From a virus, in IMG/VR virus record IMGVR_UViG_3300024262_000243, positions 1 to 23,959 of that record: a stretch of DNA of 23,959 bases. The stretch is one strand, 5' to 3'. The notes under the pieces are model-generated. The model searched no databases and was not told the DNA's origin. It saw only the letters and a list, made by a program, of their open reading frames with translations. The position numbers and the translations under genes were made by a program. Positions 2,929-21,696 of the stretch are shown in pieces; position 1 is the stretch's first letter, and each line of letters starts with the position of its first letter.

Positions 2929-4788
2929 ATGGCTAAAAAAGGTTTTTCGATCTCCGATCTAGTCCTCCAAGCGGGACGCATGGATATTGCTGGTGTTGCC
3001 AACGATGAAGTGGCTGACATCATTGAATTCATTGAATCCGATTGGGGTTTGGGTCTCAATCTATACCCGGTTCAAAAGTTCATACTTAAAGTCTACTACG
3101 GGCTTCCTTTGGAAGACAAGATCAAGTGTGTACCCGCCCCGAAGGACTGGAGAAAGAAAAACGTCCCTCTACTAACAGAAGTTGAATACCTACAATTTCT
3201 GTATGATGATGGCCGGATCAATATTAGACCCGAAGACTACGTACCCGGTAAGGAAAGGGTGCAGTTGGTCTTGTCGGTGGGTCGTCGTTCTGGTAAGACC
3301 ATGATATCCGCATGTATTTCGGCGTATGAGACCTATCGCTTGATCTTGAAGGGTAACCCTCAAAAATACTATGCCATGGTCGAGGGTAAGGACATTCAAT
3401 TAATGTCCATCGCGACGGATAAGGATCAAGCGGGTCTCCTATATCAGGATGTGAGTACCCATTTCCAAAAATGTAAGTTTTTCCAACAGTACATGGCCAA
3501 CAATACTCTTTCCTACGCCAGATTCCAAACCCCGCAAGATATTGAAACCTTTGGTTCCTACCAAGAAAATGATAAGGCCCGTTCCTCTATCCGGGTCACC
3601 TTTAAATCTTGTATCGCAAAAGGTCTTCGTGGTGCCGCCAACTTGGTGGTTATTCTGGATGAGGTTGCACACTTTATCGACAAGGGGCAAAGTGGCGCGG
3701 AGGCCGTTTGGCAAGCCGTGGTACCTTCTACCCGTACCTTCAACCCTAAAGATGAAAACAACGAAGCCTGTGGTCCCCTAGAGTCCAAGGTCATACTAAT
3801 TTCTTCCCCCCTTGGTCGCCAAGGCATGTTCTATGACCAATTTCAAATGGGGATGAAGGGTGGTGATGCCGGTAATAGTATGCTTTGCGTACAGGCACCC
3901 ACCTGGGAAGTCAACCCCACTTTGGACCCCGATGTATTCGAACTGGATTATCTTAAAGACCCCGTTGCTTTCTTTACCGAATTCGGGGCCATGTTTTCGG
4001 ATCGTACCCGTGGTTGGTGGGAGAGGGAAGAGGATCTACTGATCTGTGTGAAACCCGAACTTTTTATCAAAAAAGCAGCACCCCCCCGCAAGCCCCACTT
4101 TATGGGAATCGACTTTGCACTTGCCCAAGATGGTACGGCTGTTGCGATAGGTCATGTAGGTGAAGGTGGTATCGTGGTGGCTGATTATGTAGACCAGATC
4201 AAAGCAGGGGTAGGTATTTACCAGGATAAGGAACGTTTGGAATTTGAAGATGTTGCCAACTGGATTTATCAGTTGTCACGAAGATTCTATATTACACATG
4301 GAATGTTTGACCAATGGGCTGGTATTATTTTTGAGCAAGCGTTGCACAACAAGGGTCTGACACAGATCAAAATGGCCAATCTGAACAAACAGATCAACTC
4401 CCAGATATACAAGAATTTTAAAGACCTTGCGTGGGAGGGCGGGTTACATTTATTCACCCCAGAGGAACCTGAGGATGAAGAGGAAATTACCTATATCGAG
4501 GAATTGCTTACCCTCCAGGCCGAATACCATTCTAAGTATATCACCACTGTCGAAGCACCCCGTGGGGGTCATGATGACCGTTCCGATGCATTAGTGCGTA
4601 TGGTGTGGCTGGCTTCACAACATCGTGGTAATCCAAACTACATATCATCCTATAATAATAGAAATGGTGGTGGTGGTAATAGGGGTGCCACTTCGGGTCA
4701 AGCTTCCTACCGTAAGACTCGAAAAAAAGCTATGCGGTCAGGAAGTCACCCCTCTAGACAAATACCCAGAGGTGGTAAATGGAGATGA
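2929..4788 (+). CDS. terL: Terminase large subunit (DNA packaging ATPase and nuclease)
   Basis: The motor that cuts concatemeric phage DNA and pumps it into the prohead through the portal. The 619-residue length is typical. The ATPase half shows a Walker A motif SVGRRSGKT (residues 116-124) and a Walker B with catalytic acid VVILDE (D244, E245). The RNase H-like nuclease half shows HFMGIDFALAQDGTA with D395, a second acidic strand near MFDQWAG, and GGHDDRSDAL with D549/D550 and D553 in the place of the last metal ligand. A Gly/Asn/Arg-rich, basic tail (about 565-619) is probably disordered and may contact the portal or DNA. The nearest purine-rich ribosome binding site (AAGGA, about 2910) is rather far from the ATG. 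Downstream are two small genes and the portal. Confidence 0.95.
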   Translation: MAKKGFSISDLVLQAGRMDIAGVANDEVADIIEFIESDWGLGLNLYPVQKFILKVYYGLPLEDKIKCVPAPKDWRKKNVPLLTEVEYLQFLYDDGRINIRPEDYVPGKERVQLVLSVGRRSGKTMISACISAYETYRLILKGNPQKYYAMVEGKDIQLMSIATDKDQAGLLYQDVSTHFQKCKFFQQYMANNTLSYARFQTPQDIETFGSYQENDKARSSIRVTFKSCIAKGLRGAANLVVILDEVAHFIDKGQSGAEAVWQAVVPSTRTFNPKDENNEACGPLESKVILISSPLGRQGMFYDQFQMGMKGGDAGNSMLCVQAPTWEVNPTLDPDVFELDYLKDPVAFFTEFGAMFSDRTRGWWEREEDLLICVKPELFIKKAAPPRKPHFMGIDFALAQDGTAVAIGHVGEGGIVVADYVDQIKAGVGIYQDKERLEFEDVANWIYQLSRRFYITHGMFDQWAGIIFEQALHNKGLTQIKMANLNKQINSQIYKNFKDLAWEGGLHLFTPEEPEDEEEITYIEELLTLQAEYHSKYITTVEAPRGGHDDRSDALVRMVWLASQHRGNPNYISSYNNRNGGGGNRGATSGQASYRKTRKKAMRSGSHPSRQIPRGGKWR

Positions 4789-5040: not shown

Positions 5041-5315
5041 GATCAACGTTGGCAAAATCGGATGCTGATAAAAATATTTCCTCCCTATTGTATGAAGCCG
5101 AGATGATTCTAACTAAGGCATTGATATTGTGTGACCAAGTGTCCAAAGAGGAATCCAATAAAATTGAGCAAAGAAGATCCCTAAGGGTGAAAAGTGACTT
5201 GCGAAAAGTTTTGGGTGCTATGGAAAAGGTACGGAGGATCACCCCTTCCTATGATATGGAAGATGAAGACCTGAAATTGATCCCCAAGAAAAAAGAACGA
5301 GTGACTAAAAAATGA
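5028..5315 (+). CDS. Small basic helical protein upstream of portal
   Basis: A 95-residue protein whose ATG lies 13 bases inside the preceding gene, with AAAGG about eight bases upstream. It is strongly helical and heptad-like (SSLLYEAEMILTKALILCD, then LRKVLGAMEKVRR), ending in a Lys/Arg-rich tail (KKKERVTKK). The stop overlaps the portal start as ATGA. It could be a small coiled-coil packaging factor; position next to terminase and portal would also allow it to be a small-terminase-type DNA-binding protein. No firm family. Confidence 0.65.
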   Translation: MGRLRSTLAKSDADKNISSLLYEAEMILTKALILCDQVSKEESNKIEQRRSLRVKSDLRKVLGAMEKVRRITPSYDMEDEDLKLIPKKKERVTKK

Positions 5316-7075
5316 GTACCAAAGGATTAGAGGAAGCCACAGAGGTGGCGAAGATAAAACGCGGTCCTCAATCAAAAGCGCAAATAGGAAAAACCAGTGG
5401 GAAACCCCGCAAGGTGAATGCCGCTTCTATGAGGTCTAAGGTGGCTTTTGGTGGTGGTAGTGGTGGTAGCTTTGGAAGCACGGGCATTGGAGGGGGTACC
5501 TCCATGGGTCAGGGGAGTAATATGTACTCCCCTGAATTGTCCACGGACTTTCTAGAGTTACCACAGTCGTTGGATGAAAGCCGAAACTTTTATCGTTTCT
5601 TCTATCAAAAAGATCCTTTTGTTGGTCGTGCCATTGATACCGCTGTAGAAGTACCCATGTCCAAATTACGGATGGGTATGCCACGGGTCAAACACATGAA
5701 GAATAGACCCGTAGCCCTGATGGCTCAGGAATTTTGTGAGAAGTGGGCTAAGAGGGTAAACCTCCTAGAAAAGCTTCTTTATATAGCACACGACTACCAC
5801 CTGATTGGTGAGGTTTTTGTTTTTTGCGAAGACAAATCACCCGATATGCCGGATCACATCACACATGACACCATTCGGGTTATGGATGGTGATGGCAATG
5901 TCACGGAAGAAAAAACAAAACGTGAAGATGCCGACGAACGTGCCATACGTTGGCTAAAAAAGAATTACAAGGGTTGGACTGACATACGTGTGTTGCCTCC
6001 TGAGCAAGTCCACATGCAATCCTGGCCACTGTCGGGTGAAAAACTATTTGAGTTTATCCCTGATTCCATGACCAAAGATGTTATTGCTCAAGCGTCGGCT
6101 GGGGATGAAGATGCCGCAAGGATCGTCGAATCTTTTTCCCCTGCCGTGGTGCAAGCTGTCATGGAAGGGAAAAATGTTAAACTTAACACGAATCCCGATG
6201 CGGGTTCGTTTGTCCATTATTTGGCAAACAAAAAATCCCAATACGAACCTAGGGGTCACTCCATATTAGAACGGTGTATGCGAGTTCTCGTATACCGCGA
6301 CAAATTAAGACAGGCCCAGTCATCTATTGCTTCCCGTCACATGACCCCCATGCGTTTGATTTGGGCAGAAGATGCCTCCGTGGGTGATATAGAAGATCTA
6401 AGAGAGCAAGTTGACCTTGCCTTGCAAGATCCAGATTACTCCATCATCACCAACTTCCAGGTCAACTGGGAAGAAATGGGTTCGGATCAAAGACTTCTAG
6501 ATTTGTCTGGTGAGTATGATATGACAGATCGCCAGTTGTACGCGGGTCTGGGTGTCACCGAAAGCTTACTGTCGGGTGAGTCTTCCTATTCGAATGACCG
6601 GATCAACCTGGAAGTGATCAATACCCGATATATGTTGTTTCGAGAAATCATGCAGGAATTTGTGGAACGCCGTTTGTTTGAACCTATGTGCCGTCGTATG
6701 GGTTATATTGAAGAGATAGAGGATGAATTTGGAGACATAGAGGAAGAGGTGTTGGTACCCTCCTTATCTTTTACACGACTGGCTTTGATGGATAACCAGG
6801 AAGCGTTCGACGCGATGTTCAACTTGTACCAAAAGGGTTCGTTGGATATAGATATCATTCTGGAACTTCTGAACATTGACCCTGTGTCCACTAGAGAAAA
6901 ACTGCTTCGGGATAAATGGACCATGAATGACCCCAACTTCAATGAAGTGTTACGTACCATTTATGGTGATGCTGGTCGAGCATTGGTGGAAGACTCCGAC
7001 GTCACCGCTAAGATTGCAGAGGAGTTGGGACTCAAGTACACCAAGAAAGAGGAAGGGGATAACCGTTTTGGATAA
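5312..7075 (+). CDS. Portal protein
   Basis: The dodecameric ring at the capsid vertex through which DNA enters and leaves, and the docking site for the terminase. The 587-residue length and pattern fit portal proteins. Features include an N-terminal basic region, a Gly/Ser-rich linker (about 46-70), then the conserved entry FYRFFYQKDPFVGRAIDTA (about 92-110). A long central clip/wing region is followed by PMRLIWAEDASVGDIEDLRE, LLSGESSYSNDRINLE and a helical C-terminal crown (REIMQEFVERRLFEPM). SGESSYSN within a helix-rich segment is typical of portal stem regions. It begins by an ATGA overlap with the previous gene. The C-terminal acidic patch (EEIEDEFGDIEEE) lies near the barrel region. Identity is by pattern and by genome position between terminase and protease. 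Confidence 0.88.
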   Translation: MSTKGLEEATEVAKIKRGPQSKAQIGKTSGKPRKVNAASMRSKVAFGGGSGGSFGSTGIGGGTSMGQGSNMYSPELSTDFLELPQSLDESRNFYRFFYQKDPFVGRAIDTAVEVPMSKLRMGMPRVKHMKNRPVALMAQEFCEKWAKRVNLLEKLLYIAHDYHLIGEVFVFCEDKSPDMPDHITHDTIRVMDGDGNVTEEKTKREDADERAIRWLKKNYKGWTDIRVLPPEQVHMQSWPLSGEKLFEFIPDSMTKDVIAQASAGDEDAARIVESFSPAVVQAVMEGKNVKLNTNPDAGSFVHYLANKKSQYEPRGHSILERCMRVLVYRDKLRQAQSSIASRHMTPMRLIWAEDASVGDIEDLREQVDLALQDPDYSIITNFQVNWEEMGSDQRLLDLSGEYDMTDRQLYAGLGVTESLLSGESSYSNDRINLEVINTRYMLFREIMQEFVERRLFEPMCRRMGYIEEIEDEFGDIEEEVLVPSLSFTRLALMDNQEAFDAMFNLYQKGSLDIDIILELLNIDPVSTREKLLRDKWTMNDPNFNEVLRTIYGDAGRALVEDSDVTAKIAEELGLKYTKKEEGDNRFG

Positions 7076-7129: not shown

Positions 7130-7753
7130 ATGTTGTATGTGATCCCTATCCTTGATCAGGTATACCAAATGAAACTTGTTACCCAAAAACAAATGGTGGC
7201 CGCTAAGAAATGGAAACCCACGGGCGATGGTACTCGTGTGGGTTTCTTTGTGCGATTGCCAGAAAACTTAGCCTCGCAATTTCCTTCGTTGGGTGACCAC
7301 GATGATTCTCCACCCCATATCACTTTTTTCAATATTGGTGACATCCCTAAAGATCGGCAAGAAGAATTCACCACACGGGTCAAGAATCTATTCCTGACTT
7401 TTAGGGGTCCGGTACATGCTTCATTGGGTCCTATAGATTATTTTGTCCATCCTGGTAAGGAACGTACGGTAGCTCACCTTGTGGTGCAATTCAACAAAAG
7501 CATTGCACAGTGGCGTTCTCGTTTGCATGATCTGGTCCTGGATATGGGATTATCCGTAGGCGACTTTAATCCCATGGTGTACAATCCACATGTCACACTA
7601 GAATACATGGATGGTTTGAATACCCAATTTACAGGTGAATTACCCAAAGGGCATTGGTCTTTCAACTCGGTGGAGATATGGGGCCTAAGTAAACCTCACA
7701 TTATACCTTTTGGTTTGGGTGCCGCAGTGCGTGTAGCTACCCACTGGGAAATC
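7130..7753 (+). other. 2H phosphoesterase domain (residues 1-208 of giant protein)
   Basis: Two HxT motifs about 90 residues apart, PHITFF at H63 and PHVTLEY at H154, each on a predicted beta strand, define the 2H superfamily, which opens 2',3'-cyclic or other cyclic phosphodiester bonds or acts on related nucleotides. The surrounding strands (GTRVGFFVRLP; SFNSVEIWGLS) fit the duplicated fold. Both His and both Thr are present, so the domain should be active. Substrate cannot be read. Families with this fold include RNA 2',3'-cyclic phosphodiesterases and the phage anti-CBASS enzyme Acb1; which is closest is unknown. Confidence 0.75.
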
Positions 7754-10700
7754 ATGAAACGGGTTGCCAGTAAATACCAGGACAAGATCAAAACGGACAA
7801 AGGTAATGTAATTTACCAATATGGTCCAAGGCAGGTAGCAGACCGCCATAAAAAAAAAGCTGAAAAGTTAGAAAAACTAAAGTCCTCCATAGGTAAATTG
7901 ACCTCTAAGGTCAAAAGAGACCTTAAATCCACAGACTCAAAAAAAAAACTCACCGCCCTGGCAGTGGCATTAATTAATGACACATATGAAAGGGTTGGGA
8001 ATGATGATTCCGCAGATGAAGGACATTTTGGGGTTACCGGTTGGTTGGTGGATCACATCAAATTCAATGGGAACGGTGCCAGTATTTCCTATGTGGGTAA
8101 ATCGGGTGTGTCCCACACCAAAAAGATAACCGACTCAACTTTAACTTCGGCCCTCAAAGATGTGTGTAAGGACTGCGACAAAGGGGGCCAAATTTTTAAT
8201 GGGGTTGGTGCTTCCGAAGTCAATGCCTACCTTAAAGAGTTTGAAATCACTGCTAAGGATCTACGTGGGTTTCATGCTAACCGTGAAATGTGCCGTGTGT
8301 TAAAAGAAAATCGCAAGAACGGTCCCACTTTGCCAAAATCCCGAAAAGAACGCGATAAGATCCTCAAAGAGGAATTCGCGAAGTCCCTGGATGAAGTGGC
8401 GCAAGTGGTGGGTCACGAAAAGGCTACCCTAAGATCCGATTATCTGGTCCCTGGTCTAGAAGATAGCTTCATGAAAGATGGGACGGTAATAGAGTCTTAT
8501 AAGAAAAAGACAGCAGCACTTCTACCAGTCATGAATCCTTTGTTTAACTTTCGCCAGATCGTCAAAGAGATTCTTCTCCTGGAGGATCATCTTGCTCACC
8601 CGGATATGCGATGCCCCGACTGCATCAATAAACACCTACTCAAAATAGAAGGGTACGCCGAAGAGGCTATTACGTTGGGGGGTGAACCCGAACTTATAGA
8701 CTTAGCAGATGGTGTGATCAGATCGGCTCGATCTTTCTTTTCTTTGTTCGGTATTGGGGTGGAGGAGGAAGAAGAGTGGTTGGATGTACAACAGGTTTTG
8801 CGCAAAACACGCAAGATTTTGTTACCCTATGCCCTACGGATCAAAGTGGCCACCAAAACACATGCTGAAAAAGAAGAAGAACAGGTAGAGAAAACCAAAC
8901 ATAAAAAACCAAAGTTGAGACCCCCCCGTAAGGACCTCCATAAAGACCGTATCCATGTGGATGATAATGACATGGATACGGGTGACCGTGGTGACGACAA
9001 AGATCTATCTTTGAACTATAAGCGGGTGGCCTCCCTATGGTCTTTTCGTAAGGCCACCCCTATGTCTTTAGCCCATAGGTTTATGGTCGCTGCCGCGAAA
9101 GAACCCGAACATGCCCCTGGTGATGTCTGGGAGACGGATGACGGCAATTGGAGAGCTAAGAACAAGAAGGGTGAGGGTAAGGGTGGTTTCGCCACAGAAG
9201 ACGCTGCTAAGGCATGGGTGAGTGGTAAGGCCCAAGACACAAAAGAAGATAAGGGTGAGGATAAGGATAAGGCTAAGGAGACGCCTGAGGAAACAATAGA
9301 AAAGGCCACCGACGAAGATATCGATAACGCCAAAAAAGAACAACAACGTTTGGAACTGGAAGATGCCATTAACGTTCGCGTGGAAAAAGAACGTAAAAAG
9401 GCTGAAAAATCAGGTGAGGACTTTGACGAGGATGCACTAAGAGAGAAGATCCACCAAAAGGGTTTGCAGTACCTCATTTCCAATATGAGCCTCAATGATA
9501 AAGAGAATAAAGAGAATCTTACTCCCGAGAACATGGAAAAAGTTCTGGATCAACATGTCCGGGAAGCATTAGAGGAAATTTCATCCGACTCAGAGGATCA
9601 AACCCAAGATAGTCCTACTCCCAAGATGGATAACAGGGTGCAGAGGGTCTTTCCTAAGGGTGACCCCGATGACAAACCCATTCGGATGCAAAGCTCTACA
9701 CAAAGATTGATTGCTGGTGTTGTGGGTGCCGCTAAGAATGTTTTAGGTGACGTGGTGGGTTCGGGTTCGGAACTACTACCCGATAAATCCAAAGATGTTA
9801 TCACCCAATGGTTTGAACAGGCGGGTACCGTTGAGTGGAATGATTTTTCGGAGGCATATTCCAAGGTAATTGATAACCTTGTTGATAGACACCTTAAGGG
9901 TGAGGTGGTAAACCCCGATGATCTAAATAAACCCCTGGGTAATTCCATACCGGAAATGGCAGAAGCGGTAGCCAAAGCGCGTTTCTTAGAAAAGTTTGAG
10001 GACATTGAGGATGCCTTGGAGGAAGATCGCAAGAAAGCGATTTCCAAAAAACTAAAGGCACTGGGACCAAAGATCCAAGGTCTCATAGAGGGTGGGTCCA
10101 AAGATACCGGGATGTCCAAGGAAGTGCAGGATGCTTTGTTGGATGCCTCTTTGGAGTTTGATGACACCCAACTCGAAAGACTTAGTGCTTCTATGGAAGG
10201 ACAACTCCGTCGTCTAAAAACCTACCGACCGGAAGCAGGGGAACCCTGGGATAAAACCACTATCAATTTGGCCCGTAAGTCTATTTCAGAGGGGATCTCC
10301 GGGGACACCCCGGATCAGATAGGTGAGTCTCTTGCCAATCTGTTATTTTCTGAAAAAGTGGTAATGAATCCTGAATTCGTGGGTAACCCCGCGATTCGTC
10401 AAAATTCCGAGTATGGGGAAGGCGAACCCACCTCGAAAAAGATAACCAGTAGAGCCAAAGCTAGTTTCAGACAGTATCAAACGATGTCCGAATTGGATAG
10501 GGTGGGTGCCTCTGAAAGGATTAAATCCCTACTTAAAAAAGAGAAAGACCCTGACTCCCCAAGGTCGTTGGAATTAGGTGCTGTGTTGGCGGGGATACAC
10601 TTGTCCCAAACACTTAATGGTGAAAAGTTAACGGGTACGGAACACCAACCTACAAGTTACTTCACAGAATTAGCCAAGGCTCTCAACAAAAAGGGTGATG

Positions 10701-12427
10701 CTGAACTTCTACTGGAGACCATGGAAGATTTTACCAGTGATAAGTCTAGGGAGATCATTGAGAATGCTATAGAGGGGATGAGTGACCAAGCACTTGCCAA
10801 CTTTGCAGGTGGTAAGGATGGCCCCTACGGTGCCTTGGCAGAGGCACTTTCGGATGGTAGCACCCTTCACTGGGATCAAAAAAGACAGGTACATAGTATT
10901 TTGTCGAGTTTGCTCACACATCGTATGACCTACGGTTATTCAGTTATTCACGATATGTACAGTGCTGTATCGGAAAAGGCAGATAATGGGGAAACACCCA
11001 AAGTTGATATGGAAGACTTTGGTAGTGTTTTTGACGAAAAGATGAATCAATGGAATCAAAAAAATCGATTTGATAATGACCGGTATTTTGATGATGATAG
11101 TATTTTGAATGTGGATGTTGACAGTCCCGATTTTGATGTGGATAAGTGGAAAAAAGAGATCCAGCAAGAAATGATGGGACAACAGAATCAATCACTTTTG
11201 GATTGGGCTGACAGTATATATGGTGGCAGACCCCCAAAAGGGGAATCCCCTGCCTATGAGTACATGGCACAAGCACAGCGGGATCAGAAATTTGACAACC
11301 TAAGTCAAAAGACGGACCCCCCTTTGCGGAAAACCGCAATGAACAATTTTCAATCTTCCTTCAATAAAAGCCACCATATATGTAATGGGGAAGTCTACCC
11401 CGTAGATAATTGTGGCAATAGCAGGTCACGGAGGTTTCTGATGGCACGTATTAGTAAAAAAGGTGCAAAAAGCGTAGTTGCCCAACTCGAACGGGTAGCC
11501 GAACTTTTTCAAACGGAACATGAAACATTGGGGATCAACGAGAAAGCAGCTTTAGATTTTGCTTACCGATGTGATCTTCTTTCCGATGTAATCGAAAAAA
11601 ACGCGGGTTTTGAAAAAGAATCCCTATCCGAGTTTGACCCGGTTAAAGAACAGGGTTTTAACCCAGAAGAAATCGGTAAAGAGGATTCCGGTCCTCTTCA
11701 AAAAGAACCCGATGAAGCGTACATGAATAGCCAATTTTCCCAACAGGAAAATCGTGAACTTCGTGAACGTCAAGAGTCGGGTGAAATTGAAAAAACCAAA
11801 GAAGGCAACCCAATTTTGGATGAACAAAATCCTCAATCAGGTAAGCAAGCTTTGGATCAATCCCTGGATACCTTGACCCGTATGGCTCAAGAGGAAGGAA
11901 GTTCTGTTACTCAGTTGAGTAACATGTCGGACACAATGCGTTTGTGTTTGGCTAAACTTCAAAATATCCCCTCTGGACCTGCAAGTGATCTTGCCAAGAA
12001 ATTATCTTCCAGTGTCCAAACACACCTCACAGCATTTACCAAAGTGCGTGATGGATTGATTGATACGGAAGCCTTGGGTGTCCCCTTGGATGTTATGAAA
12101 GAAGCGGCATTGGGTCGTCTTCTTCGTGCGTCTGGTGAAGTAATGCCACACCTCAAAGAGTTGTTGTCGGAACTTCGCGTGGGTGCCACTTCTGATAGTC
12201 CTACTGCTCAACTTAACTTGCAAGACCTCCTCGATGTCAAATCGGGACGTATTGCCAAACTCATGTCCTTGAGTGCTAAGATCGTGTCCGATGCGGCTTC
12301 TGATTTTGGCAAAAAAGAAGTTGAGGTGGTTGAAAAAAAGGCATCCGAAGAAAATGCACCCGAAGAAAAGGTGGCTTCTGTGGTCCCCCCCGCTGTTTTT
12401 GGTCATGGGTTTGATTTGTACGAATAA
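7130..12427 (+). CDS. Giant multidomain head-module protein: 2H phosphoesterase + topoisomerase IB + long helical tail
   Basis: A 1,765-codon uninterrupted frame. Residues about 30-208 form a 2H phosphoesterase (LigT/CPDase-like) with PHITFF (H63, T65) and PHVTLEY (H154, T156). Residues about 209-460 form a type IB topoisomerase catalytic domain: R288 in ERVGN, K324 in VGKSG, R379 in AKDLRGFHAN, H429 in VVGHE and nucleophile Y438 in RSDYLVPG. H to Y is nine residues, as in vaccinia enzyme (H265, Y274). Residues about 475-515 hold LLLEDHLAHPDMRCPDCINK (C495, C498), a probable metal or helical module. A charged linker, a small WETDDGNWRAKN motif (about 667-678) and about 1,000 mostly helical, acidic residues follow. 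A start at 7169 with AGG eight bases upstream is an alternative to ATG 7130, which has no clear ribosome binding site. The product may be processed or may be a fusion of formerly separate genes. Confidence 0.85.
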   Translation: MLYVIPILDQVYQMKLVTQKQMVAAKKWKPTGDGTRVGFFVRLPENLASQFPSLGDHDDSPPHITFFNIGDIPKDRQEEFTTRVKNLFLTFRGPVHASLGPIDYFVHPGKERTVAHLVVQFNKSIAQWRSRLHDLVLDMGLSVGDFNPMVYNPHVTLEYMDGLNTQFTGELPKGHWSFNSVEIWGLSKPHIIPFGLGAAVRVATHWEIMKRVASKYQDKIKTDKGNVIYQYGPRQVADRHKKKAEKLEKLKSSIGKLTSKVKRDLKSTDSKKKLTALAVALINDTYERVGNDDSADEGHFGVTGWLVDHIKFNGNGASISYVGKSGVSHTKKITDSTLTSALKDVCKDCDKGGQIFNGVGASEVNAYLKEFEITAKDLRGFHANREMCRVLKENRKNGPTLPKSRKERDKILKEEFAKSLDEVAQVVGHEKATLRSDYLVPGLEDSFMKDGTVIESYKKKTAALLPVMNPLFNFRQIVKEILLLEDHLAHPDMRCPDCINKHLLKIEGYAEEAITLGGEPELIDLADGVIRSARSFFSLFGIGVEEEEEWLDVQQVLRKTRKILLPYALRIKVATKTHAEKEEEQVEKTKHKKPKLRPPRKDLHKDRIHVDDNDMDTGDRGDDKDLSLNYKRVASLWSFRKATPMSLAHRFMVAAAKEPEHAPGDVWETDDGNWRAKNKKGEGKGGFATEDAAKAWVSGKAQDTKEDKGEDKDKAKETPEETIEKATDEDIDNAKKEQQRLELEDAINVRVEKERKKAEKSGEDFDEDALREKIHQKGLQYLISNMSLNDKENKENLTPENMEKVLDQHVREALEEISSDSEDQTQDSPTPKMDNRVQRVFPKGDPDDKPIRMQSSTQRLIAGVVGAAKNVLGDVVGSGSELLPDKSKDVITQWFEQAGTVEWNDFSEAYSKVIDNLVDRHLKGEVVNPDDLNKPLGNSIPEMAEAVAKARFLEKFEDIEDALEEDRKKAISKKLKALGPKIQGLIEGGSKDTGMSKEVQDALLDASLEFDDTQLERLSASMEGQLRRLKTYRPEAGEPWDKTTINLARKSISEGISGDTPDQIGESLANLLFSEKVVMNPEFVGNPAIRQNSEYGEGEPTSKKITSRAKASFRQYQTMSELDRVGASERIKSLLKKEKDPDSPRSLELGAVLAGIHLSQTLNGEKLTGTEHQPTSYFTELAKALNKKGDAELLLETMEDFTSDKSREIIENAIEGMSDQALANFAGGKDGPYGALAEALSDGSTLHWDQKRQVHSILSSLLTHRMTYGYSVIHDMYSAVSEKADNGETPKVDMEDFGSVFDEKMNQWNQKNRFDNDRYFDDDSILNVDVDSPDFDVDKWKKEIQQEMMGQQNQSLLDWADSIYGGRPPKGESPAYEYMAQAQRDQKFDNLSQKTDPPLRKTAMNNFQSSFNKSHHICNGEVYPVDNCGNSRSRRFLMARISKKGAKSVVAQLERVAELFQTEHETLGINEKAALDFAYRCDLLSDVIEKNAGFEKESLSEFDPVKEQGFNPEEIGKEDSGPLQKEPDEAYMNSQFSQQENRELRERQESGEIEKTKEGNPILDEQNPQSGKQALDQSLDTLTRMAQEEGSSVTQLSNMSDTMRLCLAKLQNIPSGPASDLAKKLSSSVQTHLTAFTKVRDGLIDTEALGVPLDVMKEAALGRLLRASGEVMPHLKELLSELRVGATSDSPTAQLNLQDLLDVKSGRIAKLMSLSAKIVSDAASDFGKKEVEVVEKKASEENAPEEKVASVVPPAVFGHGFDLYE
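7754..8509 (+). other. Type IB topoisomerase domain (about residues 209-460 of giant protein)
   Basis: The segment opens with MKRVASKYQ, which looks like an ancestral start codon context, then YQYGPRQVADRHKKKAEKL as in the N-terminal helix region of bacterial and poxvirus topoisomerase IB. The five catalytic residues R288, K324, R379, H429 and Y438 are all present with spacings of 36, 55, 50 and 9 residues, close to those of the vaccinia enzyme. These enzymes nick one strand through a 3'-phosphotyrosine and relax supercoils without ATP. The fold is shared with tyrosine recombinases, but ERVGN, GKSG and SDYLVPG point to topoisomerase. The N-terminal DNA-clamp domain of classical enzymes seems to be absent or replaced by the 2H domain. 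Confidence 0.85.
11430..11443 (+). promoter_or_regulatory. Internal ribosome binding site and in-frame ATG
   Basis: GGAGG (11430-11434) followed by six bases and ATG at 11441, in frame with the giant ORF at residue 1438. Translation from here would give a separate 329-residue protein starting MARISKKGAKSVVAQ. This is a better ribosome binding site than that of the giant ORF itself. The segment just upstream (ICNGEVYPVDNC) may be the end of an earlier unit. Confidence 0.5.
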
Positions 12428-13055: not shown

Positions 13056-14465
13056 ATGGCATTCATGAAATATGCACGTGGTAAACTCGTCCACCCCTCT
13101 TTTGAAGTAGGGGCATGGGACAAAGTGCGTGTGGGGTCATTGAAAGGCCGTGTCTCGGACAACCTTATTGAACAGGCAAGCGAGATTTTTCAAAAGCCTT
13201 TTGATACCAAAAACTATCTTTTGTCTCATGTATCCATAGTGGCATCTGTGGATACCATGGAGGTACCCACCAAAAAAGTGGGTTCCTTTGTAGAAAATGG
13301 ACAGAAGATCAATAGGAAGTACCCAAACTTTCGGGTTACTCCAGAAACACAACCTTGGATTAACAACAATAACGACGGGTGGTCTCGTGAAGTCCTTATG
13401 AGTTCGTACCGGACTTTTATTGGGGCCCAAAACTTTCAAGAACATGTTCAATTGGAGGAACATTCCAAGGGACGCATTATAGATGCAGCGGCCCGTGATA
13501 TTGGACCTTCGGTGTACATTGATATCTTGGTAGCCACTGATCGAAAACATCGTGAATTGGTTTCCGCAATCCAAAATGGCACCATGTCTACTTTGTCCAT
13601 GGGCTGCTCTATAGACTTTTCCCAGTGTACCAAATGTGGTCATGTGGCAGCGGATGAAACCGAAATGTGCGGACACATTAAATACGAGAAAGGGAACATC
13701 TTTTATGATGAATCCGGTAATCGTCAAAAGGTGGCAGAACTTTGTGGTCATGAATCCCATGGTGATACCGCTGGTGTTACTTTCATAGAGGGTTCCTGGG
13801 TGGCGACCCCTGCATTTACGGGTGCCGTCCTACGAAACATTTTGAACCCCGATAACTTCAACAATGAAACATTGAAACAGGCACAAATGATCTTGTCCCG
13901 GCCCCCTGAACCTTGGGGTGATGGTTTTGTCAATGTGAAAACGGGAAGTCATTACTCTAATGATAGGGTTTCGGGTGACTTTGATTTTGATGAGGGTGGG
14001 GGTGACGAAGAGGCACCTCCTAAAGAAAAAGAAACCAGTCCTTTCAAGGAAATGGAAGAATCGGTTTACAAAGATGTTTTGGATCGTGTTCAAAAACGAT
14101 TAAAAAAAGACATCAACAAAGATGAAATCGACAACGCTCTAACACCTGAGAATTCAACGGCATCTCCCAATGATACCTTGATTAAACAGGCTTCCATGTA
14201 CCGTTCTGCGCTACATGCTTTAATAAAAACTTCAAATTCTGATGCAGAATTTATCAATAAACTGTCGCAATACAATGGGGAGGTTGGTATTTCAATTCCG
14301 GTTGAAATCTACCGTGCCTCGTTAACACTTGGTTCCCAGGATAAACATGAATCCTTGGATCAATTTTTGAAGTCCTGTCGCAATGTTTTGGGTAGACGCC
14401 CATCGGTGTCCGAGCAAAAGACATTAATTCGATTGGCAAAACTCTTAACTCTTATTAAGGAGTAA
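13056..14465 (+). CDS. Prohead protease with zinc-finger-like insert and extended C-terminus
   Basis: The serine protease that processes scaffold and capsid proteins during prohead maturation (HK97-type S78 or related herpesvirus-assemblin-like fold). The core is about residues 50-270. H130 in NFQEHVQ and S181 in STLSMGC stand where the catalytic His and Ser of this family lie, and GRIIDAAARDIG followed by VYIDILVATDRKHRELV matches the central strands and helix. Right after the Ser comes C191-x2-C194-G-H196 and C205-G-H207, then another CGH near residue 230: a metal-binding insert not present in classical members. The C-terminus (about 305-469) is acidic then helical and could be a scaffold-like or self-cleaved tail. 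Its neighbours are the scaffold and capsid genes, in the usual order. GAGG at about 13043 precedes the ATG. Confidence 0.82.
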   Translation: MAFMKYARGKLVHPSFEVGAWDKVRVGSLKGRVSDNLIEQASEIFQKPFDTKNYLLSHVSIVASVDTMEVPTKKVGSFVENGQKINRKYPNFRVTPETQPWINNNNDGWSREVLMSSYRTFIGAQNFQEHVQLEEHSKGRIIDAAARDIGPSVYIDILVATDRKHRELVSAIQNGTMSTLSMGCSIDFSQCTKCGHVAADETEMCGHIKYEKGNIFYDESGNRQKVAELCGHESHGDTAGVTFIEGSWVATPAFTGAVLRNILNPDNFNNETLKQAQMILSRPPEPWGDGFVNVKTGSHYSNDRVSGDFDFDEGGGDEEAPPKEKETSPFKEMEESVYKDVLDRVQKRLKKDINKDEIDNALTPENSTASPNDTLIKQASMYRSALHALIKTSNSDAEFINKLSQYNGEVGISIPVEIYRASLTLGSQDKHESLDQFLKSCRNVLGRRPSVSEQKTLIRLAKLLTLIKE

Positions 14466-16104: not shown

Positions 16105-16779
16105 ATGTCTCTACTTGGACAGGCGAGCGGTGGTTGGACTGAAAGTTCTTCGGCATTGAGATTACTCTATGTTGGAGTTAGAAACTCTGTGGGTGTCCTC
16201 ACCCCTGATTCTTTCACACAGTCCAATCCCCCCATCGTCACAACCGCTGGAACTATTTCGGCACAAGTGGATACCTTGGTTTCTGGGATTCTTTCCGGTG
16301 CCATTGCATTCACCCGCCCAGATGTGGGATCGAACTTTATCGGCGGTAACGTCGAAACCTTGGCTGTCGCAGGTCAAGAAACTTTGGTTCGACCACTCGG
16401 CTGTTTTATCAACAATGCCAACGGTAATGCCTTCGAAAACCTTCCCGGACAAGCTTCCGGTAAGGGTCCTTATGTTTCTTCCCAAGGAACATTCGGCAAT
16501 GGTCTCTTTGAGACCCAAGTTCTTGATGGCACCGCAATTACCGGTTTTGCCACGGGTGATGCATTCACTTATGTAACAGGTGTGGAGCTACATGCTTCCC
16601 GCAATGGTTACCTGATGCCAGCCGGTGCAATCGATGGTGGTGGTACTTTCCGATCCTTCCTAAACGCTGCAAACTCTGCGGAATTGGAACACGGTCTTGC
16701 TGCTTCAACAGTCATCGGCATCCTCAAAATGCCCGCTGATAGTGTCATGAACGAACTCGTTTATGACCAACGAATTTAA
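16105..16779 (+). CDS. Probable capsid decoration or minor head protein
   Basis: A 224-residue protein immediately before the major capsid gene, with GAGGAGA at 16091-16097. The sequence is Gly/Ala/Thr/Ser-rich, low in Lys, with alternating hydrophobic residues (GTISAQVDTLVSGILSG; GDAFTYVTGVELHASRNG), typical of an extended beta structural protein. Codon choice is enriched in preferred codons like its capsid neighbour, which suggests high expression. Small proteins placed just before the major capsid gene are commonly head-stabilising or decoration proteins; lambda gpD is an example of position, not of sequence. Confidence 0.6.
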   Translation: MSLLGQASGGWTESSSALRLLYVGVRNSVGVLTPDSFTQSNPPIVTTAGTISAQVDTLVSGILSGAIAFTRPDVGSNFIGGNVETLAVAGQETLVRPLGCFINNANGNAFENLPGQASGKGPYVSSQGTFGNGLFETQVLDGTAITGFATGDAFTYVTGVELHASRNGYLMPAGAIDGGGTFRSFLNAANSAELEHGLAASTVIGILKMPADSVMNELVYDQRI

Positions 16780-16792
16780 GGAGGGGATAACG

Positions 16793-17668
16793 ATGAGTAC
16801 CGTATCGAACGCTACAAAGCAAAAGATCATTGGAGATCTAATCAAAACCCCTCAAGGTCGTGCCAAACTTGCTGCGTCTATGACACAGCCCTTGAGAACC
16901 CGCAGAGACTACACTTCGGTAGGTCGTAAGACCTTTCTCGTAGAGCAATTGCCTGATGGCGCGTTGCCCATCTACGATAAAGATCCCGACGTAACCGCAT
17001 ACATCGTGGGCGAAGAAGGCGAGAACATTCTTGCCGTCACCAAACCACGTCGTGTGGTATTCCCTCTGTTCGAGATTGCATCGAATCCAGAGATTCCTTT
17101 GACACAGATCAAAGAGCGACGTTTCGACTTGATCGAAAGGGCCCAAGATCTTGCTCGGGCCCAAATCCAAGCTGCCGAAGACGAACGTGTCTTCGCAGTG
17201 CTGGACGCGATTGCCGTCAACGGTTTCGATAGCATCGCTGGACAAACCAACCCCGACATCCCTGTTGTTGCTCCCATTTCGGGTGCAGTTCTGGCAGATG
17301 CTTTTGCGGAAATTGAGCGTCACGACCTTCGTGTTGCCCGTATTTTCATGAACGCCACTGACTATGCTGACATTCGTAAATTCGGTCGCGACATCCTGGA
17401 TATCGAATCCCAAGCAGTGTTGCTGAAAACTGGTCTTCAAGCCACCCTTTGGGGGGCCCAGATCATCACTTCACGTTTGGTTCCAGTTGGTACGGTCTAT
17501 GTATGCTGCGAACCCGAAATGTTTGGTCGCATCCCAGTTCGTACAGAACTCACCGTTTTGTCGGCAGACGATCCAAAAGCCCGTACTATCGGCTTTTCCG
17601 TCTTCGAGAACCTGGGTATCGGCGCGTACAACCCCCGTGGTCTTACCCGCCTCGTGATCACTCGATAA
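16793..17668 (+). CDS. Major capsid protein
   Basis: A 291-residue protein. ATG 16793 with AAGGAGGGG at 16778-16786 is chosen over an ATG 30 bases upstream, which lies inside the previous gene and lacks a ribosome binding site. The pattern fits an HK97-fold shell protein: a basic N-terminal arm (about 1-45), an extended loop region (PDGALPIYDKDPDVTAYIVG), then a long spine-like helix rich in charged residues (RFDLIERAQDLARAQIQAAEDERVF split by short turns, about 103-127). Alternating A-domain strands and helices follow (ARIFMNATDYADIRKFG; LWGAQIITSRLVPVGTVYVC), with C-terminal beta strands (TIGFSVFENLGIGAYNP). It follows protease, scaffold and decoration genes, as expected. Confidence 0.85.
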   Translation: MSTVSNATKQKIIGDLIKTPQGRAKLAASMTQPLRTRRDYTSVGRKTFLVEQLPDGALPIYDKDPDVTAYIVGEEGENILAVTKPRRVVFPLFEIASNPEIPLTQIKERRFDLIERAQDLARAQIQAAEDERVFAVLDAIAVNGFDSIAGQTNPDIPVVAPISGAVLADAFAEIERHDLRVARIFMNATDYADIRKFGRDILDIESQAVLLKTGLQATLWGAQIITSRLVPVGTVYVCCEPEMFGRIPVRTELTVLSADDPKARTIGFSVFENLGIGAYNPRGLTRLVITR

Positions 17669-18299: not shown

Positions 18300-18572
18300 A
18301 TGCCCCAAAGATATAACCACCTTGCGAAAACTGATTACCCCGTATCCGGTTGGGAACCTGACCTACAAGAGGTTGTGGTGGCCGAATGGAAGCCTATTCA
18401 AAACCAAAGTGACGTTAATTTGGTCATTTGCCATTATGAAGATGATGGGTGGGAGTTGGTGACGGTGACGTGTGTTGCTACGGGATATACTGATATGGTG
18501 GGTGTCCCCACCATGAAGTGGTGTGTTTACTTCAAACGCCCCGTCGAATCTGAACTTGAAGAAAAGGATTGA
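18300..18572 (+). CDS. DUF4177-like small protein
   Basis: A 90-residue protein with GGAG six bases before the ATG. The central part, VAEWKPIQNQS, then DVNLVICHYEDDGWELVTVT and a final strand KWCVYFKRP, fits the DUF4177-type pattern in which a helix ends in GWELV and is followed by a strand and a terminal F-K/R motif. Function of that family is unknown. Charged C-terminal tail (ESELEEKD). It ends four bases before the CoaB-like gene, so the two are probably one operon preceded by the structured leader. Confidence 0.6.
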   Translation: MPQRYNHLAKTDYPVSGWEPDLQEVVVAEWKPIQNQSDVNLVICHYEDDGWELVTVTCVATGYTDMVGVPTMKWCVYFKRPVESELEEKD

Positions 18573-18576
18573 TTTC

Positions 18577-19905
18577 ATGAAAGATCGATTTTATGTGATA
18601 TCAGGGGGTACTATGGTCCATGTGGCCCCCCATTTTAGTCTGTGTTCACCCGCTTACGGTACTGTGGGGAACTCCCTGGTACGGGGGTTGTCACTCTATG
18701 CTGGGGGTCAGGATAGCGTTCATCTGATTCCCACCCGTATGGTGAACACCCCCTTCCAGGTAGATGGCCATGTAGACCACCTCTTGGATATCTTGGATTT
18801 GAAATTCATAGAAACCAACGAAGATGTGTCCCGGTTGGTGGACCTCTTGGTATCTCGCGAAGAGACTCGTTGCATCGTGATGGCTTGCGCCTTGTGTGAT
18901 TTTGAACCCCGTAAGATATCTTGGATTGAGGAAGGTCCCTACAATTTTAAAAGCCTTCGGTCTTTTGGGAAAGATCAACCCCGTCTCTCTTCCAAATACC
19001 GCCCCCAAATGGATCTGATACCTACCGATAAGTTGATCGGGAAGATCCGTAAAAACCGAAAAGACATATTTTTGGTGGGGTTCAAAACCACAGCGGGTGA
19101 ATCTCCCAAATCCCTTTACGACAAGGGTCTCAAACTCTTGAAAGACAATTCCTGCAATTTGGTCTTGGGTAACGATATTCAAACCCACCTCAATATGATC
19201 ATCACACCGGAAGAGTTTCCATATACCTTTGTGGGCGGCAAGGGTAGGGATGAAGCTATTGACCAATTGTGTGAAATGGTAATCCAGCGGACTAAACTCT
19301 CTTTTTCCAAAACAGAGGTGACAGGGACACCCGATCAAAAAATCCTTCCTGCTACCGCAGAGGGTATCCCGGAAAACTTTGTTCCAGTGCTACGATTCCT
19401 TATTGAAAATAATGCCTTCAAGTTGGTCAATGGTAGGACCACGGGTCATTTTGGTTGTGTATACCCAGAGGGTAGTTTATCTTCTGTTAGGTATGCCAAT
19501 CACAACAAGGTTTTCGAAGAGGGTATGGTTCGGGTAACTGGTACCAAAGATGGAGTGATCCAGGCTATTGGTTCTAAGCCTTCGGCGGGGGAACATACCC
19601 AACAGGAGATCTATCGTCAATTGGGGGATAGGGTACATTCGGTGGTACACTTCCATTGCCCCTTGAGTAAAGGTATCATCCTACCCATGGCCTCACAGAA
19701 GCCATTTGAGTGCGGTTCCCATCAGTGTGCTACCAACACGGTCAACGCTATGGAGGAATTGTCTCCAGGGGTCTATGTGTGCCACCTGGAGGGGCATGGT
19801 CCAAACATTGCCTTTCACAAAGATGTACCCGCATATACTCTTATTTTCATGATTCGGAAGTTTTGGGATTTGTCAAAGGGTCTTTCCGATCACCTGGAGG
19901 ATTAG
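18577..19905 (+). CDS. CoaB-like (phosphopantothenoylcysteine synthetase) / class II aldolase-like fusion enzyme
   Basis: ATG 18577 with AAAAGGA at 18562-18568 gives 442 residues; upstream in-frame ATG overlaps the previous gene. Residues about 1-235 resemble the CoaB half of DFP/CoaBC, which joins phosphopantothenate and cysteine in coenzyme A synthesis: SGGT (9-12) for nucleotide binding, LVGFKTTAGES (166-) in the place of CoaB VGFxAET, and GNDI (198-201) in the place of AND(V). Residues about 265-442 resemble the class II aldolase/adducin fold with HFH (H358, H360) and HLEGH (H403, H407) as likely metal ligands. CoaB alone is usually fused to CoaC, not to an aldolase. The arrangement suggests an auxiliary metabolic enzyme or a repurposed nucleotide-dependent enzyme; substrates are unknown. 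Confidence 0.72.
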   Translation: MKDRFYVISGGTMVHVAPHFSLCSPAYGTVGNSLVRGLSLYAGGQDSVHLIPTRMVNTPFQVDGHVDHLLDILDLKFIETNEDVSRLVDLLVSREETRCIVMACALCDFEPRKISWIEEGPYNFKSLRSFGKDQPRLSSKYRPQMDLIPTDKLIGKIRKNRKDIFLVGFKTTAGESPKSLYDKGLKLLKDNSCNLVLGNDIQTHLNMIITPEEFPYTFVGGKGRDEAIDQLCEMVIQRTKLSFSKTEVTGTPDQKILPATAEGIPENFVPVLRFLIENNAFKLVNGRTTGHFGCVYPEGSLSSVRYANHNKVFEEGMVRVTGTKDGVIQAIGSKPSAGEHTQQEIYRQLGDRVHSVVHFHCPLSKGIILPMASQKPFECGSHQCATNTVNAMEELSPGVYVCHLEGHGPNIAFHKDVPAYTLIFMIRKFWDLSKGLSDHLED

Positions 19906-20323: not shown

Positions 20324-20758
20324 ATGAAAAACAATTGCAAAATTTCCCTTTACCTTGTGATCCTAACCCTTGGTTTTTCCTTTGGCATGGTGGCTTATTC
20401 CGCCCCCACTTCAAAACCAACGTCACAACCTACATCACAACAGGCATCACCACCTGTGATCAAATCCGGTAGGCACACGGGTGCTGTGCATGTAGAACCC
20501 TTTGACCCTTCCAAAAGTTGTTTCCTGGTTAATGACTTCCCGCAAGCCGATTTTACCACGGTGGTTAAAGCCAAGAGAACACCCGAGTGGGTGAAGCTTC
20601 GATCTCAAATTCGGATATTGCAGGAAGAACAGGCAAAATTGGGGAAAAAAATTGCCAGTAACAAAGAAAAATCGGTCGCCAAATCCATTGGGGATGCTTT
20701 CTCTTTCTTTGTGATGTGTGTGTTTTTGGGGTTTGTTGTGAAGAAAGTTTCTAACTGA
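20324..20758 (+). CDS. Secreted or membrane protein with Thr/Ser/Pro repeat
   Basis: A 144-residue protein with AAAGG nine bases before the ATG. Residues 1-27 are a signal peptide: basic MKNNCK, hydrophobic ISLYLVILTLGFSFGMVAY, and an Ala-containing cleavage site (YSA-PT). There is no lipobox Cys. Residues about 28-43 are repetitive (PTSKPTSQPTSQQAS), a likely extended linker. A helical, Lys/Gln-rich segment (about 92-120) precedes a C-terminal hydrophobic stretch (FSFFVMCVFLGFVVKKV), a possible second membrane anchor. This could be an envelope or lysis-related protein, for example a spanin-like bridge, but no lysis family is recognisable. Its end overlaps by eight bases the end of the convergent metallophosphoesterase gene. 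Confidence 0.6.
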   Translation: MKNNCKISLYLVILTLGFSFGMVAYSAPTSKPTSQPTSQQASPPVIKSGRHTGAVHVEPFDPSKSCFLVNDFPQADFTTVVKAKRTPEWVKLRSQIRILQEEQAKLGKKIASNKEKSVAKSIGDAFSFFVMCVFLGFVVKKVSN

Positions 20759-21518
20759 CCTTGAAAAGTTTCCCCTGGTAGAATAAAGACCCATTGATGA
20801 TGGGTATCTGATCAATCACCATCCTCTCTTCTTCCAATAAATAATGACCTATCGAAAATCCATGTTGCCAATCCGGTGTGCCATTTATGTATTCTGGGTC
20901 CATGTGGCAAAGGCACCCATTTTCATACCAAGTATAGTGTCCTTGTAGTGTGGTTCGATGGTGGGCCCCCAGCCTATGGGTGTGTCCCGAGATACCCGAA
21001 TTTTGTCTTCGCTCAAACATCTTCTTTGCTGTCATAGCGGAACCTACAGATACACGGTCACCATGTTCTACCAAAAAATTATGATGGGATAGGTATCCCC
21101 GATATCCCTGGTGTGTAATACCCAAGGAATCTAGTTCGAGCAATGCAGGTATCGTAAGTGCCTTGAGTCCCGCCATTTCCTCATGTTTTTTAATGTACGT
21201 GACCAATCGGTCTTCGTGGTTCCCATCTTTATATGCAATCTCTGCGTCGGGACAGGCGTTTTTGACGTGGTGTAGGAATTCAATGGTGGCATCGATTTCA
21301 AGCTGGAACTTACTGGCCTTGTTGGCATCTTTGGAGTAACTGCTAACCGCATACATATCGATGATATCACCAATAAGGTAAATGAATTGTGGTTGAAACC
21401 ATCTTATGAATGACAACATCAAACGGATGGCTACCTTATCCTGGAAGGGGTGGTGGGTATCCCCAATGAATACCACTTTTTCAACTTCGGTGGGGATGGA
21501 CTTTATAACTTTTATCAT
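20751..21518 (-). CDS. Calcineurin-like metallophosphoesterase
   Basis: Minus strand; the start is ATG at 21518 (reading down) because GGAG lies eight bases upstream of it on that strand (sequence GGAGAAGAACATG). A longer reading frame with 19 more codons has no site. The product is 255 residues and has all the signature blocks of the family: GDTHH (D20, H22), GDIID (D51), GNHED (N100, H101), EHGD and GHTHR. These place two metal ions that hydrolyse phosphomonoesters or diesters, including nucleic-acid ends. No membrane part. It is the only minus-strand gene in the window, convergent with the secreted-protein gene and divergent from the next, so it must have its own promoter in 21519-21696. 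Confidence 0.88.
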   Translation of the reverse strand: MIKVIKSIPTEVEKVVFIGDTHHPFQDKVAIRLMLSFIRWFQPQFIYLIGDIIDMYAVSSYSKDANKASKFQLEIDATIEFLHHVKNACPDAEIAYKDGNHEDRLVTYIKKHEEMAGLKALTIPALLELDSLGITHQGYRGYLSHHNFLVEHGDRVSVGSAMTAKKMFERRQNSGISGHTHRLGAHHRTTLQGHYTWYENGCLCHMDPEYINGTPDWQHGFSIGHYLLEEERMVIDQIPIINGSLFYQGKLFKVS

Positions 21519-21696
21519 GTTCTTCTCCAATGAAAGGACCAAAAGTCTATGGGTAAAAGTACCCCATAACTTCAAACCCCTACCCTATCTTTGGACGATA
21601 ATAAACGGAATCCGTCTAAAACTCCCTAAAATGGGGTCGTTCATACTCCTTTTATAAAAAAACTAATTAGGAACACTTTATATAGGAGTGAGGAAA
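21519..21696. promoter_or_regulatory. Divergent intergenic region
   Basis: 178 bases between the minus-strand metallophosphoesterase and the next plus-strand gene. It must hold promoters for both. On the plus side TATATAGG (21679-21686) sits just before the ribosome binding site and resembles the TATATAAG at 16012; whether it is a promoter box or only part of the leader is unclear. ACGGAATCCGT (about 21604-21614) is a small inverted repeat, too weak to call a terminator. Confidence 0.35.

Follow-up and report, generated by a model that had tools for sequence, protein, structure and literature searches.

The window, by which we mean the whole stretch of 23,959 nucleotides of viral DNA that was analysed, encodes a very large protein of 1765 residues next to the portal gene. 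With a probability of roughly one half, we regard its N-terminal domain as a LigT/ThpR-type 2H phosphoesterase that is active and hydrolyzes 2',3'-cyclic phosphates at RNA 3' ends, and that is part of a polyvalent protein which huge phages encode in their head operon. Damaged tRNA would most likely be the substrate of such an enzyme.

The reading frame is free of internal stops, and the stretch from 7130 to 7753 corresponds to its residues 1–208 (Table 1). It combines several disparate domains in one ORF beside the portal and terminase genes, which is what defines polyvalent proteins; in the window these domains are the 2H domain and a type IB topoisomerase, and relatives add further domain types. 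As the 2H domain starts only at about residue 17, M14 may be the true start.

Table 1. Features of the window, with the match or observation on which each assignment is based.
Feature	Position	Strand	Basis or remark
Large terminase	2929..4788	+	phrog_17415 1.6e-12
Portal	5312..7075	+	phrog_16240 9.5e-31; directly upstream of the 1765-aa ORF
Polyvalent-type ORF, 1765 aa	7130..12427	+	Order: 2H, topoisomerase IB, CxxC domain, long linkers, X domain
M14, possible true start	7169..7171	+	Sequence
2H phosphoesterase domain, residues 17-205 (approx.)	7178..7744	+	PF13563 9.1e-8, over cut-off; 23-sequence alignment A3
First HxT motif, H63-I-T65 (PPHITFF)	7316..7324	+	Invariant in the 23-sequence alignment
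Second HxT motif, H154-V-T156 (NPHVTLEY)	7589..7597	+	Invariant in the 23-sequence alignment
RVASKYQ motif, 2H/topoisomerase joint	7760..7780	+	RVAxRY-type motif also at protein ends and domain joints of relatives
Catalytic core of topoisomerase IB, up to active Tyr438 (Pfam match to residues 239-434)	7844..8443	+	PF01028 2.7e-26; R288, K324, R379 and H429 inside
CxxC domain, residues 464-562	8519..8815	+	In LR745208, encoded separately and upstream of the topoisomerase
X domain, residues 1442-1553	11453..11788	+	Most relatives encode it separately, behind the cassette
KOW gene (our label), 203 aa	12434-13045		No Pfam match; between the 1765-aa ORF and the protease
Head maturation protease	13056..14465	+	phrog_18299 6.4e-13
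Major capsid protein, HK97-type	16763..17668	+	PF05065 4.9e-6

Three further genes of the window are noted as side aspects. Upstream of the terminase (597-1718, + strand), an ORF has an N-terminal Dps/ferritin-like domain (phrog_858 4e-7, PF00210 0.005). A 460-aa ORF at 18523-19905 (+) contains a CoaB-type DFP domain (PF04127 2.5e-5), and its C-terminal half appears class II aldolase-like by eye. A calcineurin-like metallophosphoesterase (PF00149 1.8e-4) is encoded at 20751-21575 on the minus strand, with its neighbors on the opposite strand.

The 2H signal is weak when the full-length ORF is scanned (LigT_PEase, E 0.11), whereas the domain scanned in isolation scored 32.7 bits with PF13563 (2_5_RNA_ligase2), the cut-off of which is 27. 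In alignment A3, which contains 23 sequences and whose other members are 27–45% identical to the window domain, only 12 columns are invariant, and both histidines and both threonines of the HxT motifs are among them. A chance occurrence of these motifs can therefore be dismissed, and the sequence-only reading, which had described H63/T65 and H154/T156 as intact, was right on this point. A profile match to an unrelated fold, named there as an observation that would contradict the assignment, did not appear. The dN/dS values in five pairs of relatives were 0.06–0.18. We thus assign the domain to the 2H phosphoesterase superfamily by its two HxT motifs and infer a 2H fold at residues ~17–205. The PHROGs profiles gave no match for the domain, no viral contig was matched in a DNA-pattern search that used only the window 2H, and one profile scan of genome contigs with alignment A4 did not find cellular relatives.

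Among solved structures, profile A3 matched the RNA cyclic phosphodiesterases (CPDases) 2fyh, 1vdx, 5h7e, and 1iuh with E-values from 4e-7 to 3e-5; both HxT motifs aligned with those of 2fyh and 1vdx, and 5h7e was matched over the same stretch. By this homology, the two histidines would be expected to face a common groove. The model TIGR02258, "RNA 2',3'-cyclic phosphodiesterase", gave an E-value of 7.6e-5 at 22.7 bits, below its equivalog cut-off of 65.7, and we therefore consider that the domain probably works like these enzymes and do not file it as a member. Judged by these profiles, the window 2H resembles the LigT/ThpR RNA 2',3'-cyclic phosphodiesterases and not Acb1.

A scan with a topoisomerase alignment yielded 80 viral loci, and a second scan started from 2H domains that are linked to a nucleotidyltransferase. 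When both scans are combined, about 33 distinct loci in phages carry a 2H of the same clade; in nearly all of them, it lies in the head operon with the portal on one side and the topoisomerase on the other. In most loci of the topoisomerase scan, the order is terminase, portal, a variable cassette with the topoisomerase, X, the KOW gene, protease, and capsid; in another clade, a short topoisomerase lies upstream of the portal. A tRNA nucleotidyltransferase is found in the same interval as the 2H in 23 of the ~33 loci, often in one polypeptide, although this count is inflated because of the seeding of the second scan. In the first scan alone, the nucleotidyltransferase is present in 14 of 22 loci with a 2H versus 2 of 9 without (p=0.044, kinship ignored). 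Seven proteins have the nucleotidyltransferase after the 2H with a linker of 30–34 residues. The 2H is also fused or adjacent to an RNA-repair HAD domain in three loci: nucleotidyltransferase, HAD_SAK ("Swiss Army Knife" phosphatase), and 2H are chained in one 927-aa ORF in L068, and a HAD_SAK gene immediately precedes the 2H-topoisomerase ORF in L008 and L018. The window's own cassette consists of 2H and topoisomerase only, with neither nucleotidyltransferase nor HAD. As points against an RNA-repair role, no RNA ligase fused to a 2H was found, and several 2H-bearing records had no RtcB and PF09414 matches. T4-type Rnl1 (PF09511) had no match anywhere, controls included, so that its absence carries no information.

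Further modules in the cassettes of relatives are ART-PolyVal (L058), InPase (L057, L053, L068), and GNAT, and these signatures mark the cassette as polyvalent (Iyer 2017, PMC5512222). A replacement of the HD domain of CCA enzymes by the 2H was considered and discarded, as no HD domain could be recognized by eye in standalone phage nucleotidyltransferases either. Several features of individual loci deserve mention in their own right. At L053:5797-7644, the nucleotidyltransferase is fused to an inorganic pyrophosphatase domain, which could clear the pyrophosphate released by the nucleotidyltransferase. In L045, L051, and L073, the cassette nucleotidyltransferase is interrupted by inteins that contain LAGLIDADG domains, and portal and protease matches are split within long ORFs in L011, L021, L077, L129, and L139 (portal), possibly also by inteins. 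Two tandem 2H domains are encoded in one 474-aa ORF after the portal at L134:3958-5043. The phage LR745208 has a second, distant 2H (2e-12) in a 503-aa ORF, with an RVA-type motif after the domain, and a caspase-like ORF, recognized by eye, lies nearby (L091:1997-3505 and 3960-4501).

In jumbo phages, a pathway has been proposed in which 2H enzymes clear cyclic ends, a Swiss-army-knife HAD removes the phosphate, and a CCA enzyme restores the tRNA end (Iyer 2021, PMC7824862). As the cassette joins the three enzymes of this pathway, we favor RNA 3'-end healing as the function of the window 2H. The 2H would open the cyclic phosphate at the RNA 3' end, the HAD phosphatase would remove the phosphate, and the nucleotidyltransferase would rebuild the CCA end. 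For the window phage itself, whose cassette has neither of the latter two enzymes, the repair argument is one by relatedness, and nucleotidyltransferase and HAD would come from elsewhere in the phage or from the host.

Where this chemistry would take place is a separate question. Inferred from position only, the 1765-residue protein is possibly packaged in the virion and injected, in which case RNA repair and relaxation of DNA by the topoisomerase would start at entry. Tentatively, the virions of huge phages might contain 2H, HAD phosphatase, and CCA nucleotidyltransferase as a ready-made kit for the repair of tRNA 3' ends, which would be anchored to topoisomerase IB, be injected, and defend translation against host RNases before phage gene expression; we consider this extended proposal possible but rather less probable than the enzymatic assignment. 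Alternatively, the cassette could be expressed late and serve tRNA maturation or head assembly within the producing cell, with no delivered function. One nucleotidyltransferase per record was found in 18 of 21 parent records, and in 12 it is the cassette copy, which also speaks for RNA 3'-end healing; many of these phages have 17–70 tRNA genes to mature. However, the protein resembles packaged proteins in being polyvalent and in being encoded between portal and protease, and we hold sole use in the producing cell to be doubtful. This alternative is about where the protein acts and would agree with the RNA-end chemistry.

With respect to the RVASKYQ motif at the 2H/topoisomerase joint, a 536-kb relative (L093-L119) contains 21 motifs of the RVAxRY[LM] type versus 3.6 expected, mostly at protein ends and also at cassette joints, with a cluster at 111-208 kb. 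Thirteen of the 21 lie in one stretch of 18%, for which the nominal p of ~1e-5 refers to a stretch picked after seeing the matches. The motif might be a capsid-targeting or processing tag, which we regard as no more than a lead.

A delivered 2H could also be a counter-defence enzyme that degrades second messengers, either cyclic oligonucleotides in the manner of Acb1 or 2'-5' oligoadenylate. The 2H fold is capable of messenger cleavage, as Acb1 demonstrates (PMC9117128), signal degradation has been proposed for the 2H of polyvalent proteins (Iyer 2017, PMC5512222), penguinpox cGAMP PDE gave a weak match to profile A3 (E 0.15), and the InPase, ART, and GNAT neighbors are compatible with a role in conflict. 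However, the Acb1 model PF23474 reached only E 0.006 and 16.8 bits against a cut-off of 27 and was seen in just 2 of 23 members, no chain of an Acb1 structure was matched by A3 at E<=10, and the company of the 2H is a tRNA nucleotidyltransferase and an RNA-repair HAD. We therefore judge messenger degradation to be unlikely. Of the families between which the sequence-only reading had wanted a profile search to decide, the LigT/ThpR-type CPDases were thus recovered, whereas the Acb1 lead turned out to be weak.

The topoisomerase is an intact type IB enzyme, with the Arg-Lys-Arg-His-Tyr pentad (R288, K324, R379, H429, Y438) in the PF01028 core and invariant among 65 topoisomerase sequences. Type IB topoisomerases that cut at a ribonucleotide in DNA can leave a 2',3'-cyclic phosphate. 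The 2H might accordingly be an end-processing partner of the fused topoisomerase that opens this phosphate, and processing of embedded ribonucleotides by Topo 1 is established. The fusion of a 2H to a topoisomerase in a structural operon, which had been pointed out as unusual, is real, and it recurs in other phages, with both domains in one ORF in 16 of the ~33 loci. The two directly abut in five of them (the window, L008, L018, L057, and L129), which lie on several branches and do not form one clade in either the 2H or the topoisomerase tree, the deep support of which is low. However, in about half of the ~33 loci the 2H is on a separate ORF, it is missing from many topoisomerase-bearing loci, and a link to the tRNA nucleotidyltransferase is the more frequent one. 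The special link between the two domains that had been suspected was accordingly not borne out, and the 2H-topoisomerase pair was demoted as a dedicated functional unit; of the DNA/RNA end-processing option, end processing was retained, and the topoisomerase as its dedicated partner was not. We regard such a partnership as quite improbable.

In the trees, the window topoisomerase groups with topoisomerases that have a HAD in the 2H slot (support 0.79, moderate), and its 2H falls among the nucleotidyltransferase-linked 2H domains with low support, so the slot before the topoisomerase is exchangeable. In the 485-kb phage LR745208, the blocks of the window protein are separate genes, partly reordered, and the topoisomerase gene starts with the RNA-repair domain HAD_SAK_1 (1.1e-23) where the window has the 2H.

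Finally, a Usb1-like RNase effector directed against the host, as proposed for 2H domains fused to MuF or portal (Iyer 2017), would fit the same position beside the portal, but the close fusion to an RNA-restoring enzyme favors repair and the solved structures matched by the profile are LigT/ThpR-type CPDases, so that we consider this very unlikely.

For the 2H domains of polyvalent proteins, a concrete candidate substrate is thus provided by RNA 3' ends, which would be healed together with a tRNA nucleotidyltransferase on one polypeptide. In dozens of phages, many of which are huge, the head-operon cassette has a fixed topoisomerase, around which other modules are exchanged. The fusion of this 2H to other tRNA-repair enzymes in relatives suggests that phages of this kind maintain a set of enzymes for RNA repair and perhaps inject it. 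Should virions contain the protein, these phages would bring tRNA repair along instead of making it after entry, which would bear on how they survive tRNA-cutting defences.

The presence of 2H domains in polyvalent proteins and the role of 2H, HAD, and CCA enzymes in jumbo-phage RNA repair have already been published. For a head cassette that is anchored by a topoisomerase and in which 2H and nucleotidyltransferase are fused, we found no description in the literature searched, the scope of which excluded most subscription journals. One of the close known cases is gene 173 of Virus Rctr197k (KX853510), which encodes 2039 residues with a 29%-identical 2H near the C-terminus and InPase-like segments, but topoisomerase and nucleotidyltransferase matches are absent in the stretch examined. 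The anti-CBASS nuclease Acb1 shares the 2H superfamily and differs in the sub-threshold profile match of the window 2H and in its genomic company. With LigT/ThpR, the window domain shares the 2H family by profile and the alignment of both HxT motifs, but it remains below the TIGR02258 equivalog cut-off and had no cellular relative in the one genome-contig scan. The polyvalent proteins (PMC5512222) are alike in the very large multidomain ORF by portal or terminase, in 2H, InPase, and ART-PolyVal, and in domain shuffling; there, the stress for the 2H was on RNase or signal-degrading roles and the sole mention of "topoisomerase" is a reference title, whereas here topoisomerase IB is the constant core, and tRNA nucleotidyltransferase and HAD_SAK are the enzymes linked with the 2H. 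The jumbo-phage RNA-repair set (PMC7824862) has the same three enzyme types and an explicit pathway; its SAK HAD is mostly standalone, whereas here a cassette of the head operon brings the enzymes together, in many cases within a single polypeptide.
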